Shown piece after piece: positions 38,782-45,348 of a DNA stretch of 64,000 nt. Position 1 is the stretch's first letter. Every line of letters starts with the position of its first letter. Below the pieces are notes generated by a model that made no database searches, was not told where the DNA came from, and saw only the letters and a list, made by a program, of their open reading frames with translations. The DNA is from Deltaproteobacteria bacterium (lineage in GTDB: Bacteria; Desulfobacterota; BSN033; UBA1163): contig VGRY01000009.1 in assembly GCA_016875195.1 (NCBI GenBank), positions 1 through 64,000 of the forward strand, given 5' to 3'. A program made the translations under genes and the position numbers.

Positions 38782-39135
38782 CTAACCGGCCGCTTGCTTT
38801 CTGACGATCCGAGTTGAGCGAATCGTTCGACCTCCAACTTTTTGACCTTTCATTTCTTTGAATAGCCGTAACTCCAGGCGGCAGCCGAGGGCGTGAGCGT
38901 ACTTTTGCAATGTGGCTAAAGAGGGAGAATGCTTTCCTCTGCCAGATTCCAGCCGAGCAATGGCTGATTGCGTGGTGCCGATGCGTTCGGCAATTTCTGC
39001 CTGGGTAACGCCTGCAGCGGCACGAGCCTTGAGAAACTCATCGAGAAAAACGAACTCCTCGCCGAGCCGGTCGTATTCAGCTCTTACGTCAGCCCTTGCA
39101 AGGGCGCGAGCCTTAAGTTCTTTGTGTGTAAGCAT
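38782..39135 (-). CDS. XRE-type antitoxin (HigA-like)
   Basis: A 117-residue protein with a helix-turn-helix at about residues 45-95: AGVTQAEIAERIGTTQSAIA and RLESGRGKHSPSLATLQKYA. The N-terminal helix and length fit HigA-type antitoxins of HigB/Gp49 toxins. It overlaps the toxin gene upstream by 23 bases. It should bind the toxin and repress the promoter at 39461-39489. Confidence 0.87.
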   Translation of the reverse strand: MLTHKELKARALARADVRAEYDRLGEEFVFLDEFLKARAAAGVTQAEIAERIGTTQSAIARLESGRGKHSPSLATLQKYAHALGCRLELRLFKEMKGQKVGGRTIRSTRIVRKQAAG

Positions 39136-39454
39136 GTTTAACCTCCTTCAACCTCCGGCGTGCTATTTCAAGCTCTTTGGAGGGAGTCTTGTCCGTCTTC
39201 TTTATGAATAGGTGCAGTATCACTATCTTCTTGCCAACCATCGTGCAATAAAATACTCTTGCAATTCCTTCGGGGGCCTTTATCCGTAACTCAAATAATC
39301 CCTCACCCATGGCCCGGGTATGCGGCATACCCAGATCCGGTCCATATACCTCCATGCGGTCAGAATATCGAAGGTACCGGCCAAGAAAACCTGCCAGCAT
39401 TGCAAGAATTTCTTCCTGAAGAGATTGGCTATAGTAAGTGATTGTCCAACCCAT
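39113..39454 (-). CDS. HigB/Gp49-like type II toxin
   Basis: A 113-residue RelE-superfamily toxin of the phage Gp49-like group. Recognisable stretches are LGMPHTRAMGEGLFELRIKA and RVFYCTMVGKKIVILHLFIK then KTDKTPSKELEIARRR. It comes first in the operon and overlaps the antitoxin gene by 23 bases. Its ATG is six bases after a perfect TATAAT, so the message is leaderless or nearly so. Such toxins cut mRNA on the ribosome. Confidence 0.87.
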   Translation of the reverse strand: MGWTITYYSQSLQEEILAMLAGFLGRYLRYSDRMEVYGPDLGMPHTRAMGEGLFELRIKAPEGIARVFYCTMVGKKIVILHLFIKKTDKTPSKELEIARRRLKEVKHAYTQRT

Positions 39455-39957: not shown

Positions 39958-42900
39958 TTATGGAATTTTAGCTTTTCCAGCGCAGCTTTGGATCGCTCCC
40001 TTCTGTTTACCCGCGATAACATCATCTTTCTGGAGGTCATTGGTCAATGCTGAAACACAACTCACAAACTGACCGTGGTTTCTAGCACCATGGACGCACT
40101 GGTTGATCATATCAGAAATGGTGCAACCATTTCCAACTGAAGCGTTTTCAACCCCTGAATCACACCCGTCAACCACAACGGTATTGCTCAGATCGGACAT
40201 TGGGCACCCGTCAGTCTCGCCACTAAATAGATCGAACACCCCGTCACCGTCGCTGTCCGTAGGGGCCAGCAAAGCACAAACTGAGAAGTGCTCCAACTCT
40301 GCGGTGCAGGTGGCAATGAACGTTTCCGAGTTCGGTGGGTCCTCGGCAACAGCGCAGTTCGCCGGTGGATCGATTGGGACGAAGCTGTCCTTCACTCCGT
40401 CACCGTCTGTATCCGTAAAAACATAGAGATTAAGCTTATTGCGCTGATTGGCGTTTAGTTGCGAGACGTCTGCAACAACGGTGAGCGTGATCGCATTCGC
40501 AAACTCCAATCCGTCCGGTTCCATGATGTAGACAGCGAGCGCATCACCTAGCCCAGGGTTCGGCCCAACCATAAGATCCACTCCTGGATCCTCCGGAATG
40601 GTCTGGGTGACAGAGATGGTTGTGTCCTCGGTAAGGTCACGCGCTTCGATCTCCATGGTCAACGCCTGATCTGGCGTCTGCAGGATGCCGCCCTCCTCTG
40701 CTTTAATCTCCTTGGAGGTGGACCCGCCTTGGTTGCACTGATCAGACGGATCGGCCGGACACACGTCGCACAGGTCTCCAAATGTGTCATTATCCACATT
40801 TGCTTGGGCCGGATTTGAGACTTCCGGACAGTTGTCTATGTCACCACAGATATCGTCACCGTCTATATCATTATCCGCATCATATGGACATCCATCACAG
40901 GCGTCACCCCACCCGTCCCCATCTGCATCTGCCTGACCGGGGTTCGCAACCGCCGGGCAGTTGTCCACGTTGCCACAGACTCCGTCACCGTCTGCATCAT
41001 TGGCGGGATCATTAGGGCATATGTCAAAGCAATCGGCAATCGTATCGTTATCGAGATCAAAACCCTCGTCAACGGAGCCGTCACAGTCGTTGTCTATGGT
41101 GTCGCAGACCTCTGTGGCACCTGGGTTGATGGATGCATCAGTGTCCCCGCAGTCACCGCTCGTTGCGGTCAGCTCAGATGCTATTTTATAGCCAGTTGGC
41201 CTGGCACACTGGGTCAAGGTGCTGCCGTCAGAATAGCCGTCAGCATCAGAATCTTTATACCAGGACTGGTTCGGGCGCTCGTTTGGATTGTCGTCATTAC
41301 AATCATTTTCAGTTGCTGACCCGGTGCATCCACTTATATTAAGCCCGGTTCTTCCATAGCCATCACCATCGGCATCTGTGCAAAGGTCACAAACATCACC
41401 TATTCCATCGTTGTCAGAATCTGTTTGGCCAGGGTTGAAAACATCAGGGCAGTTGTCATGAACATCGTTGATTCCATCGCCGTCTGCGTCAGCAATCTTA
41501 CAGACTGCATCCCCTCCGGTATAATCAGCCGCCTGACCATAGGGATTGTCTCCGTAGCAGTCCACATTTCCGTTTGACTTAAGGATGCAGGTGTGCCCAA
41601 ATCCTGCAGCAACTCCTACTGCATCCCCTAAGGTATAATCAACTGCCTGACCGAAATCATTCGATCCGTAGCAGTCCACATTTCCATTCGACTTAAGGAT
41701 GCAGGTGTGGTAATCTCCCGCAGCGACCCCTATTGCATCCCCTAAGGTATAGTCATTCGCCTGACCATAGGGATTGTATCCGTAGCAGTCCACATTTCCG
41801 TTTAACTTAAGAACACAGGTGTGGAATCCTCCCGCAGCGACCCCTACTGCATCGCCTTTGGTGTAATCATTGGCCTGACCATCATCATTTAATCCGTAGC
41901 AGTCCACACTTCCCTTTGCCCTGAGGACACAAGTGTGGAATCCTCCCGCAGCGACCCCTACTGCATCGCCTCCGGTATAATCTTCCGCCTGACCATAATA
42001 ATTGTATCCGTAGCAGTCCACATTTCCGTTTAACTTGAGGACACAGGTGTGGTATCCTCCTGCAGCGACCCTTACTGCATCGCCCGCGGTATAATCAGCA
42101 GACTGACCGACAAAATTCCCAATTTCATCTTTATCATATCCGTAGCAGTCCACATTTCGGTCTGACTTGAGGACACAGGTGTGTAAAAATCCTGCCGAGA
42201 CCGCTACGGCATCCCCTCCGGTATAATCAGCTGCCTGACCATAATAATTGTATCCGTAGCAGTCCACATTTCCGTTTGCTTTGAGGACGCAGGTGTGGAA
42301 GGATCCAGCAGACAATCCACCACACCTTCCTGAAAATGCATCCTTCCTACCACACACCGCATCCCCTAAGCTGTAATCATTTGCCTGGCCGTAGCTATTG
42401 AATCCGTAGCAGTCCACATTTCCATTTGACTTGAGGACACAGGTGACAGAGTTTCCCGTAGCAACCCCTTCTGCATCCCCTCCGGTATAATCATTGGCCT
42501 GACCATAATAATTGTATCCGTAGCAATCCACATTTCCGTTTAGCTTAAGGACACAGGTGTGAACTTCTCCCGCAGTGACCCCTACTGCATCCCCTCCGGT
42601 ATAATCTTCCGCCTGACCGTAAGCGTTGTTTCCGTAGCAATCCACATTTCCGTTTGACTTAAGGATACAGGTGTGACCTATTGCGCCAAAAAAAGCTCCG
42701 CCTGCAGCTACCGCTACTGCATCTCCTCCGTTATAATCATTGGCCTGACCATAATCATTCCTTCCGTAGCAGTCCACATTTCCGTTTAACTTGAGGACAC
42801 AGGTGTGATCATATCCAACGGATAATCCTACCGCATCCCCGCCGTTATAATCATTGGCCTGACCATAATCATTCCTTCCGTAGCAGTCCACATTTCCGTT

Positions 42901-44379
42901 TGATCGAAGGATACAGGTGTAGTATCCTCCTGCCGCTACCCCTACCGCATCCCCTGCGTTATAATCATTGGCCTCACCATAGTCGTTCTTTCCATAGCAG
43001 ACCACATTTCCGTCTGACTTGAGGACACAGGTGTGGTAATGCCCTGCAGACAATCCAGCACAGTTCTTAACTCCGATTTCGCAGGCATCGCCCCTTCCAT
43101 CATTGTCTCTGTCGCTCTGATCACTATTGGGGTGGTACTGGCAGTTGTCATAGACATCAGGCACCCCATCATTATCGTCATCAGGATCGCAAACATCTCC
43201 CATACCGTCAGCGTCATTGTCAGCCTGATCAGGGTTTGACATAGCGGGGCAGTTGTCACAAACATCACCTATACCGTCAGCATCATTGTCTGCCTGATCA
43301 GAATTGGAAATATCGGGACAGCTGTCATAAACATCGTTGATTCCGTCACCGTCTGAATCGGTGAACCCATTACTACACACTGCATCTCCTCCGGTATAAT
43401 CATTGGCCTGACCATATTGATTGTCTCCGTAACAGTCCACATTTCCGTTTAACTTAAGGACACATGTGTGAAATCCTCCCGCAGCGAGCCCTACTGCATC
43501 CCCTCCGGTATAATCTTCCGCCTGACCATAATAATTGTATCCGTAGCAGTCCACATTTCCGTTTGACCTGAGGACACAGGTGTGATCATATCCTGCAGCT
43601 ATCCCCACTGCATCCCCTACGGTATAATCGTTAGCCCGACCGTAGTCGTTGTTTCCGTAGCAGTCCACATTTCCGTCTGACTTGAGGACACAGGTGTGCA
43701 TATATCCTGCAGAAACTCCTATAGCATCCCCTCCATTATAATCATTGGCCTTACCCCAGCTTACGTCTCCGTAGCAGTCCACATTTCCGTTTGACTTGAG
43801 GACACAGGTGTGACCATCTCCTGCAGCCACCCCTACTGCATCCCCTCCGGTATAATCGTTTGCCTCACCATTGTAATTGTCTCCGTAGCAGTCCACATTT
43901 CCGTTCGACTTGAGGACACAGGTGTGATATGCCCCCGCAGCTACGGCTACTGCATCCCTACCGGTATAATCATTGGCTTGACCGTAGTCGTTGTTTCCGT
44001 AGCAGTCCACATTTCCGTTCGACTTAAGGACGCAGGTGTGCCAATATCCCGCAGATACCCCTACACCATCTCCTCCGGTATAATCATTGGCCTCACCATA
44101 GTCGTTCTTTCCGTAACAGTCCACATTTCCGTTTGACTTAAGGACACAGGTGTGGAGCCATCCTGCAGACAGCCCAGCACAGGTGCCTGAAAAAGCTTCC
44201 CCTTGGTTGCTTAAGCCCCCAATTAAACCAAACATGATCACTCCATAAACCCAAACTCCTGCCAGCTTCTTTAGGAAGGGTCTCAGATTTATCCTCTTTT
44301 CTGCATGTCTTTTCGATAATACAGCACTGAGTGAGGATTCCATCAGAGCCAACGAATTTATTAGGACGAGTTTCTTCAT
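39958..44379 (-). CDS. Giant secreted protein with three RCC1-like propellers and thrombospondin type 3 repeats
   Basis: About 1473 residues. A long signal region (hydrophobic core [16 protein letters not shown]) is followed by 20 repeats of about 38 residues, each like [15 protein letters not shown], then GNVDCYG and [11 protein letters not shown]. They fall in three blocks of 7, 6 and 7. Each block opens with C(A/G)GLSAG and closes with AVC. Between blocks 1 and 2, and after block 3, lie calcium-binding TSP3 repeats ([15 protein letters not shown]). A MopE-like [15 protein letters not shown] motif and a beta-rich C-terminal region follow. The start at 44379 has AAAGGGGGG upstream; the frame is open to 44517. 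No sorting signal was recognised. It is probably a surface or released adhesin. Confidence 0.88.
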
Positions 44380-44519
44380 AGCGACCCCCCTTTGGTGAAC
44401 AATAGCGCAATCAGGATAGCGTGAAACACGATGTTGAAAATGAAAGGCCTTCAAAGGAATTCTACAATCACTCTGGGCGCCCTCATTAACCGCCCAATCC
44501 ATGAGCTTCCTTCTCAATG

Positions 44520-44554
44520 AAAAAAACCGCTACCCATGTCTTATCGGATAGCGG
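44520..44554 (-). terminator. Hairpin with T-run in the leader of the giant gene (attenuator-like)
   Basis: On the minus strand CCGCTATCC, loop GATAAGACAT, GGGTAGCGG, then seven T. The stem has eight canonical pairs and one wobble pair. It sits 140 bases before the start codon and downstream of a good promoter. Confidence 0.65.
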
Positions 44555-44578
44555 CCCGACTACCCCGTTTTTTAACCT

Positions 44579-44602
44579 CCAGAAATATTCGAATATTTCT
44601 GG
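44579..44602. promoter_or_regulatory. Perfect 24-bp palindrome near the start of the giant gene's transcript
   Basis: CCAGAAATATTC followed by its exact complement GAATATTTCTGG. It lies just below the predicted transcription start, so it is an operator or a 5' hairpin. Confidence 0.65.
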
Positions 44603-44616
44603 ACCCATTAAATTTC

Positions 44617-44645
44617 ATGATGCTGATATTTTTTTAAAATGTCAA
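44617..44645 (-). promoter_or_regulatory. Candidate promoter of the giant gene
   Basis: TTGACA (44645-44640), 17 bases, CATCAT (44622-44617) on the minus strand. The message would begin near 44610 and have a leader of about 230 bases containing the palindrome and the hairpin. Confidence 0.45.
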
Positions 44646-45042: not shown

Positions 45043-45348
45043 TTACCTATGCAATGCTTCGGCGTGCAATTTTATTCCAAGTGCCGCCATCACCTTGAGG
45101 ATCGTGTCGAAACCGGGAATACGTTCACCCGAGAGGGTCTTGTAAAGACTTTCGCGGGACAGACCGGCATCACGCGCGACCTGCGCCATCCCCTTAGCGC
45201 GGGCGATATCACCCAGTGCCTTAGCAATGAATGCGGCATCGCCGTTGGCCTCCTCAAGACAGGCTTCCAGATATGCGGCCATGTCTTCTGGAGTCCGGAG
45301 ATGCTCGGCGACATCGTAGCGTGTTGTTTTGGTCTTGCTCATGCTCAT
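45043..45348 (-). CDS. Putative addiction-module antitoxin (HTH, HigA2-like)
   Basis: A 101-residue protein of the addiction-module antidote family. It begins TTRYDVAEHLRTPEDMAAYL, has EEANGDAAFIAKALGDIARA and the helix-turn-helix AQVARDAGLSRESLYKTLSG, ending IKLHAEALHR. The frame is intact. TAGGAGG, made partly from the stop of the toxin gene, is its ribosome site. Its toxin partner upstream carries a nonsense codon, so the antitoxin appears orphaned. Confidence 0.88.
   Translation of the reverse strand: MSMSKTKTTRYDVAEHLRTPEDMAAYLEACLEEANGDAAFIAKALGDIARAKGMAQVARDAGLSRESLYKTLSGERIPGFDTILKVMAALGIKLHAEALHR

Follow-up and report, generated by a model that had tools for sequence, protein, structure and literature searches.

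The window analyzed here, a 64,000-nucleotide stretch of contig VGRY01000009.1 from a Deltaproteobacteria bacterium (assembly GCA_016875195.1), carries a gene for a giant cysteine-rich protein made of RCC1-type propeller blades and thrombospondin type 3 (TSP3) repeats, with an nhaA-I riboswitch ahead of it. Our reading, to which we give a probability of about one half, is that the gene encodes an ion-induced, exported multi-ring RCC1-type binding scaffold whose blade type has spread horizontally. The architecture is a variation on a known theme; what merits further attention is the riboswitch ahead of the gene, together with the cross-domain blade.

A scan of the translation returned 20 repeats in three groups of seven, six and seven, each with two cysteines nine residues apart (C-x9-C pair in 20/20 blades), just as the original prediction had stated. 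Its claim that every block opens with an extra cysteine and closes with AVC was likewise borne out (3/3 blocks, the openings being CAGLSAG, CAGLSAG and CGGLSAG). The HTC motif that it gave for the repeat is found in most blades, blade 9 reading YTC and blade 13 VTC. Repeat spacing within blocks is 38 residues, except for two spacings of 44 caused by 6-residue inserts in blade 11 (block 2) and blade 15 (block 3). Pfam RCC1_2 matched 20 stretches (E 5.6e-164, 529 bits against a cut-off of 22) and TSP_3 matched five (E 5.7e-28, 96.7 bits against a cut-off of 25); at E 0.01 the only families found were these two and WD40_RLD. On sequence grounds, repeat and TSP_3 matches at these E values are not chance. 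The identification of the repeats as RCC1 blades with a disulfide-type cysteine pair is upheld by the RCC1_2 match, by a profile alignment that places the blade cysteines on those of the CRINKLY4 protein ACR4, and by the cysteine pairs of plant CR4. Ring closure by disulfides C67-C335, C440-C676 and C686-C960 would fit the positions of the opening and closing cysteines. A rod of three propellers with TSP3 linkers had also been proposed; this stands for the first junction and fails for the second, as TSP3 joins only blocks 1 and 2 because blocks 2 and 3 lie just 8 residues apart (GRKDAFSG) and are almost directly joined. Further TSP3 is located C-terminal of block 3. The original prediction mentioned neither the riboswitch nor the four variable blade positions nor the relatives in other domains of life. 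An ancestral duplication relating rings 1 and 3 was also considered, but mean identity is 0.76-0.79 at all seven shifts and therefore no such duplication can be read.

When the 20 blades are set in register, four of the 38 columns (9, 10, 26 and 28) have entropies of 2.3-3.1 bits, while the other 34 stay at or below 1.58. Columns 9 and 10 fall within AGxxHTC and columns 26 and 28 within CYGxNx; F, W, Y or H occupies column 9 in 8/20 blades and column 10 in 10/20. The same four columns have the four highest entropies of 38 in a Parcubacteria relative (L064) and are among the six highest in an Aenigmatarchaeota relative (L066, where column 9 is tied with column 22). In L170, which has no cysteines, the four columns reach 1.55 bits against 0.31. 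Comparing the window blades with one another gives a ratio of nonsynonymous to synonymous differences (pN/pS) of 0.33 for the frame and 0.80 for the four variable columns: the frame is under strong constraint and the four positions are under little. Such a pattern of constraint would be expected of a binding surface, and drift in free loops would give it too.

Several points weigh against the binding interpretation. The pattern is weak in L065 (five blades), L067 and L169 are uninformative with just one to three usable blades each, and pN/pS is below 1 in the variable columns, therefore relaxed loops also fit. A purely structural role, as a passive spacer, coat or matrix protein with loop positions varying by drift, would suit a protein so rich in Cys, Asp and TSP3, whose best solved matches are COMP and thrombospondin-2 and whose frame is under purifying selection, with the variable columns below 1 as well. 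However, the variation is confined to four aromatic-rich positions, at which distant lineages vary too, and we regard the structural role as an unlikely alternative that still carries some weight.

Block 2 was modelled with AlphaFold2 (AF2) from 15 aligned segments taken from the window and the relatives' loci. It is predicted as six 3-stranded blades (18 strands), with a predicted local distance difference test score (pLDDT) of 86 and a predicted template modelling score (pTM) of 0.85; BLIP-II (template modelling score, TM, 0.77 to 1jtd), UVR8 and ACR4 came out on top among its Foldseek neighbours. At the ends of the model, which would have to meet in a closed ring, pLDDT is low and the closing DAVC piece forms no strand, and Foldseek TM values of 0.7-0.8 with root-mean-square deviations of 2.6-3.4 to seven-blade rings do not show whether the six blades make an open or a closed ring. 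A model of all three blocks (aa 62-964, 10-row alignment) had a pLDDT of 36 and was discarded, which is a point against the proposed scaffold reading. Of the three closed rings that had been expected, structure prediction thus recovered the six propeller blades of block 2 and failed for the three blocks together.

Block 2 may not be natively six-bladed. The true layout could be 7+7+7, one blade having been lost by short-read collapse of the 114-bp units or by a recent deletion, and we give this close to an even chance. Among 28 relative proteins (raw hidden Markov model (HMM) match counts, some proteins being cut or partial), the number of blades is most often a multiple of seven (16/28, the count for one of the 16, L087, including a far outlier). 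Block 2 retains the cysteine opening and closing seen in rings 1 and 3, there is 85% DNA identity between its first blade and blade 1, and a 60-nt exact repeat links blades 9 and 10 inside it. On the other side, no exact repeat in the gene reaches 70 nt, the longest being one of 63 nt (blades 6/16) followed by this 60-nt one, and exact repeats shorter than 70 nt are resolved by assemblers with long k-mers. The AF2 model has six well-packed blades, and two of the 28 relatives (L078 and L085) likewise have six matches, the remainder having other numbers. Blade numbers also differ among close propellers, VCBS paralogs that are otherwise identical having 6 and 9 blades in the available text of PMC9218822. 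Because a perfect collapsed unit would leave no trace, 7+6+7 and 7+7+7 appear about equally likely. A search for the identity of a blade missing from block 2 gave scores of 0.76-0.80 for every choice, with none standing out.

The riboswitch is an nhaA-I aptamer (Table 1) that scores 50.2 bits against a gathering score of 37 (E 5.9e-7 over the window), is the sole Rfam family in the 64 kb, lies on the strand of the giant gene and is one of two nhaA-I aptamers in the genome draft. The strand alone folds as a terminator (minimum free energy -32 kcal/mol, z -4.1) with a stem that 0/500 shuffles reached. Two features of the class named Na+-II are present in the window, namely an aptamer above the Rfam gathering score and a terminator sharing the aptamer's 3' arm. 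A promoter-like site ends 11 positions ahead of the aptamer; 3 sites at this level occur in the 901 bases scanned, against 1.5 expected.

Matches to nhaA-I were found in 38/345 genomes of the window's phylum, and in 8/10 genomes of its genus, its own included. We examined 51 aptamers, that of the window and one from each of 50 fetched regions, for terminators. A terminator overlapping the aptamer's 3' arm is found in 50/51 by a permissive rule and in 45/51 at a stem score of at least 8. Terminator-bearing nhaA-I RNAs are the usual form in this phylum, often in tandem. White et al. 2022 (PMC9646797), in the available text, call variants with a terminator rare, name them Na+-II, describe them from Deltaproteobacteria, where the genes behind them have no known function, and report a Na+ response in the terminator-bearing nhaA-I RNA that was tested. 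By eye, the genes behind nhaA-I are varied and include a Liv-type binding protein operon (in the window's genus and family), an MscS-like channel, Kef- and NhaD-like transporters, and pentapeptide and lipoproteins. The second nhaA-I of the window's own genome (G000:C56:21488-21551) precedes a branched-chain amino-acid type binding protein operon, a pairing that recurs in the genus and family. In another genome (G013:C90), nhaA-I with a terminator lies ahead of a 678-aa Cys-rich exported-type protein with an HYR domain. In a third (G089), a fluoride riboswitch match (L013 1702-1746) and an nhaA-I aptamer are on opposite strands, about 140 bases apart.

Against sodium control of the giant gene stand the following. 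The terminator rule is permissive, as 50/500 window shuffles pass it at any stem and 13/500 at a stem score of at least 8. At G(U/C)CGGG the window aptamer carries U, as do 40/51 aptamers; if that U is position 54 of the D. propionicus construct of White 2022, where C marks Na+-II, Li+ or mixed specificity would be suggested. The lack of an NhaA match in the window's own genome draft (the control was positive in 4/14) speaks for the proposed reading, but the draft is 87% complete and NhaA could be missing from it. At the gathering score nhaA-I occurs at 0/26 other RCC1 loci, some of which lack upstream DNA, and RCC1 blades occur in 0/50 riboswitch regions (the control was found; 6 regions are below 2 kb); therefore the pairing is unique in this sample. 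Literature naming RCC1 together with "Na+ riboswitch" was not found. The riboswitch might then not control the giant gene at all, being a relic or being bypassed by another promoter between 44524 and 44379. In keeping with this, the association with RCC1 was found once, the distance from terminator to ATG is 145 nt, and a 90-aa out-of-frame open reading frame (ORF; 44410-44138, minus) starts in the gap and overlaps the giant gene. We consider this explanation quite improbable, as riboswitch and gene are on the same strand, the gap holds no minus-strand promoter-like site and no ORF of at least 80 aa wholly inside it, and the aptamer retains a 50-bit match and a 13-pair terminator.

To place the blade type, patterns derived from the rings were scanned over 84,980 species genomes, a set that may not include the window's near relatives. 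Six relative loci were obtained, with best-segment identities of 77% (Gribaldobacteria), 71% (Parcubacteria), 66% (Patescibacteria AH-259-L05), 64% (Methanophagales, short), 61% (Aenigmatarchaeota) and 45% (Promineifilum), so that 5/6 lie at 61-77%. Within the phylum, matches at E 1e-40 occur in 5/297 genomes, the window's own included, and the best of the others reaches 175 bits against 537 for a window ring. Blade by blade, over 19/20 window blades, identity to the window is 70% for Gribaldobacteria, 65% for Parcubacteria, 62% for Patescibacteria and 56% for Aenigmatarchaeota, against 37% and 31% for the Cys-type blades of two genomes of the same phylum. The window blades are thus closer to those of Patescibacteria and DPANN archaea than to Cys-type blades of their own phylum, which favours horizontal spread; the window's genome probably acquired the blade type from a pool to which both groups belong. 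Speaking against this, blades from Promineifilum (39%) and Methanophagales (32%, poor register) show no close similarity to those of the window.

Two adhesin-like precedents speak for a binding scaffold. In the Parcubacteria protein the ring is preceded by DUF2341 and followed by Peptidase_S74, a chaperone domain of the tail-fibre type. A seven-blade RCC1 domain is described for the minor pilin PilX2 of a Saccharibacterium in the available text of PMC12206443. Four proteins of the window's phylum (L080, L082, L089 and L171) have the cysteine pair in 7/7 blades each. Opening and closing cysteines like those of the window occur in L171 and L078; those of L171 may belong elsewhere, because Cys-rich DUF4215 repeats come next. 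In Promineifilum (L067 1730-9284), two adjacent genes have 34 and 21 Cys-paired RCC1 blades. Viral contigs were considered as a source of relatives and set aside, as none of 68 pattern matches was a relative.

The similarity across domains of life might instead reflect binning, or convergence of amplified repeats. Judging by titles, metagenome drafts account for most of the six relatives; the scan seeks window-like peptides and may lack records near the window's genome, and propellers homologous only at the level of the blade are reported in the available text of PMC9218822. However, the relatives come from several unrelated groups and have different domain partners, the Parcubacteria locus sits on a 557-kb contig whose fetched part carries a bacterial 16S gene, and the window gene lies behind a riboswitch type that is common in its genus. 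We therefore hold binning or convergence to be unlikely, without dismissing it, and horizontal spread to be the better account.

Taken as an ion-induced exported binder, the system could work as follows. Transcription would begin just ahead of the nhaA-I/Na+-II type riboswitch. Without ligand, the aptamer's 3' arm would pair into the terminator and RNA synthesis would halt; with ligand, most likely Na+, the aptamer would keep its 3' arm and the long gene would be transcribed. In the protein, whose export we infer, each blade would be an invariant frame braced by its own putative disulfide and presenting four variable loop residues. The 20 blades would offer about 80 variable positions, probably gathered on a single face of the rings, by comparison with protein binders of the BLIP-II kind, and the TSP3 segments and Cys-rich tail would act as stiff spacers. 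The presumed target of binding could be another cell, a glycan or a protein. A bolder version, in which a sodium-sensing riboswitch switches on a disulfide-braced multi-propeller binder, the blade, a fixed frame with four hypervariable loop residues, is a natural combinatorial binding cassette exchanged among Patescibacteria, DPANN archaea and a larger bacterium, and the salt state of the cell is linked to cell contact, is doubtful and should be given little credence for now.

If the proposal is true, an ion-sensing RNA controls a giant exported binding protein rather than a transporter, and one of the genes of unknown function placed behind terminator-type nhaA-I RNAs in the available text of PMC9646797 gains a testable function. 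The blade would be nature's equivalent of designed repeat binders, each unit having its own disulfide. Salt may then trigger production of a giant binding protein with blades of a type that tiny episymbiont-type bacteria and archaea also possess. With this blade type in Patescibacteria and DPANN archaea, it would become possible to test directly whether small episymbiont lineages and larger cells exchange parts used in binding.

Table 1. Features of the giant gene and its leader (positions in the window; aa, residues of the translation)
Feature	Position	Strand	Remarks and basis
Promoter-like site, sigma-70-like, TTGACA-17-CATCAT	44617..44645	minus	10/12; consensus match only
nhaA-I (RF03057) aptamer	44546..44606	minus	terminator-bearing form like Na+-II; Rfam, 50.2 bits
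Intrinsic terminator	44524..44557	minus	13 pairs, 5' arm shared with the aptamer's 3' arm; sequence, folding, shuffles
Ribosome-binding site AAAGGGGGG	44385..44393	minus	read from sequence
ORF of giant RCC1/TSP3 protein	39958..44379	minus	1473 aa, 81 Cys; ORF translation, Pfam
Hydrophobic stretch, aa 39-58	44206..44265	minus	likely signal-peptide core behind long basic N-region; sequence reading
Block/ring 1, aa 66-335	43375..44184	minus	seven Cys-paired blades, opening C67, closing C335; repeat scan and Pfam
TSP3 calcium-type linker, aa 341-434	43078..43359	minus	Pfam TSP_3; COMP and thrombospondin-2 matches
Block 2, aa 439-676	42352..43065	minus	six Cys-paired blades, opening C440, closing C676; repeat scan, AF2
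Block/ring 3, aa 685-960	41500..42327	minus	seven Cys-paired blades, opening C686, closing C960; scan and Pfam
Second TSP3-rich, Asp/Cys-rich region, aa 961-1215	40735..41499	minus	Pfam, solved-structure matches, sequence
Region aa 1222-1370	40270..40716	minus	beta-rich by eye; sequence
Cys-rich C-terminal piece, aa 1400-1473	39961..40182	minus	sequence

The start codon is not certain. The open frame extends upstream to a TTG at 44517 and contains a further in-frame ATG upstream of 44379; the ATG at 44379 is preferred for its good ribosome-binding site. Export appears likely from the hydrophobic stretch and the cysteine content. A Pfam search of aa 1223-1473 returned 0 families, and the Cys-rich C-terminal piece had one match, at 36%, in genome G054. 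A shared C-terminal sorting tag was considered and rejected, as the last 82 aa match the window's own genome only (1/40 genomes). The flanks at 38782-39454 and 45043-45348 hold small genes or gene pairs that by eye resemble toxin-antitoxin or helix-turn-helix addiction genes. In a related genome, an 86-kb contig (G013:C72) is mostly filled by a 25,073-aa open frame with TSP3 matches (about 81123-81434).

Among known systems, BLIP-II and other bacterial RCC1 propellers (PF13540) are secreted seven-blade RCC1 rings of short repeats, which the window protein resembles in its likely export and in the blade number of blocks 1 and 3, and BLIP-II is its best PDB profile match (E 6.7e-14); unlike the window protein, BLIP-II has no blade cysteines in the aligned sequence, a single ring and no TSP3. 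The rings of L064, L065 and L066 have the same blade frame, and those of L064 and L066 the same variable positions, but each is one seven-blade ring after DUF2341 and has no ring-closing cysteine pair. The thrombospondin type 3 regions resemble the window at aa 341-434, which match COMP (E 2.9e-42), a likeness limited to the type of linker. With the Na+-II riboswitch of PMC9646797, as given in its available text, the window shares an aptamer whose 3' arm forms part of an intrinsic terminator, with a gene of unknown function behind it; it differs in that the target is a giant RCC1 protein, "RCC1" being absent from the main text of that paper as available. The CRINKLY4 (CR4/ACR4) ectodomain likewise has a cysteine pair per blade, and ACR4 is among the top folds and profile matches. 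Plant CR4 has seven repeats of ~39 aa, the C(X10)CWG pairs of which are believed to be joined as disulfides within the blades, as given in the available text of PMC4617170, whereas the window has C(X9)CYG, one residue shorter, in three blocks of a bacterial protein with no kinase or TNFR-like part (Pfam at E 0.01). Cys-paired seven-blade RCC1 rings are thus already known, from plant CRINKLY4.

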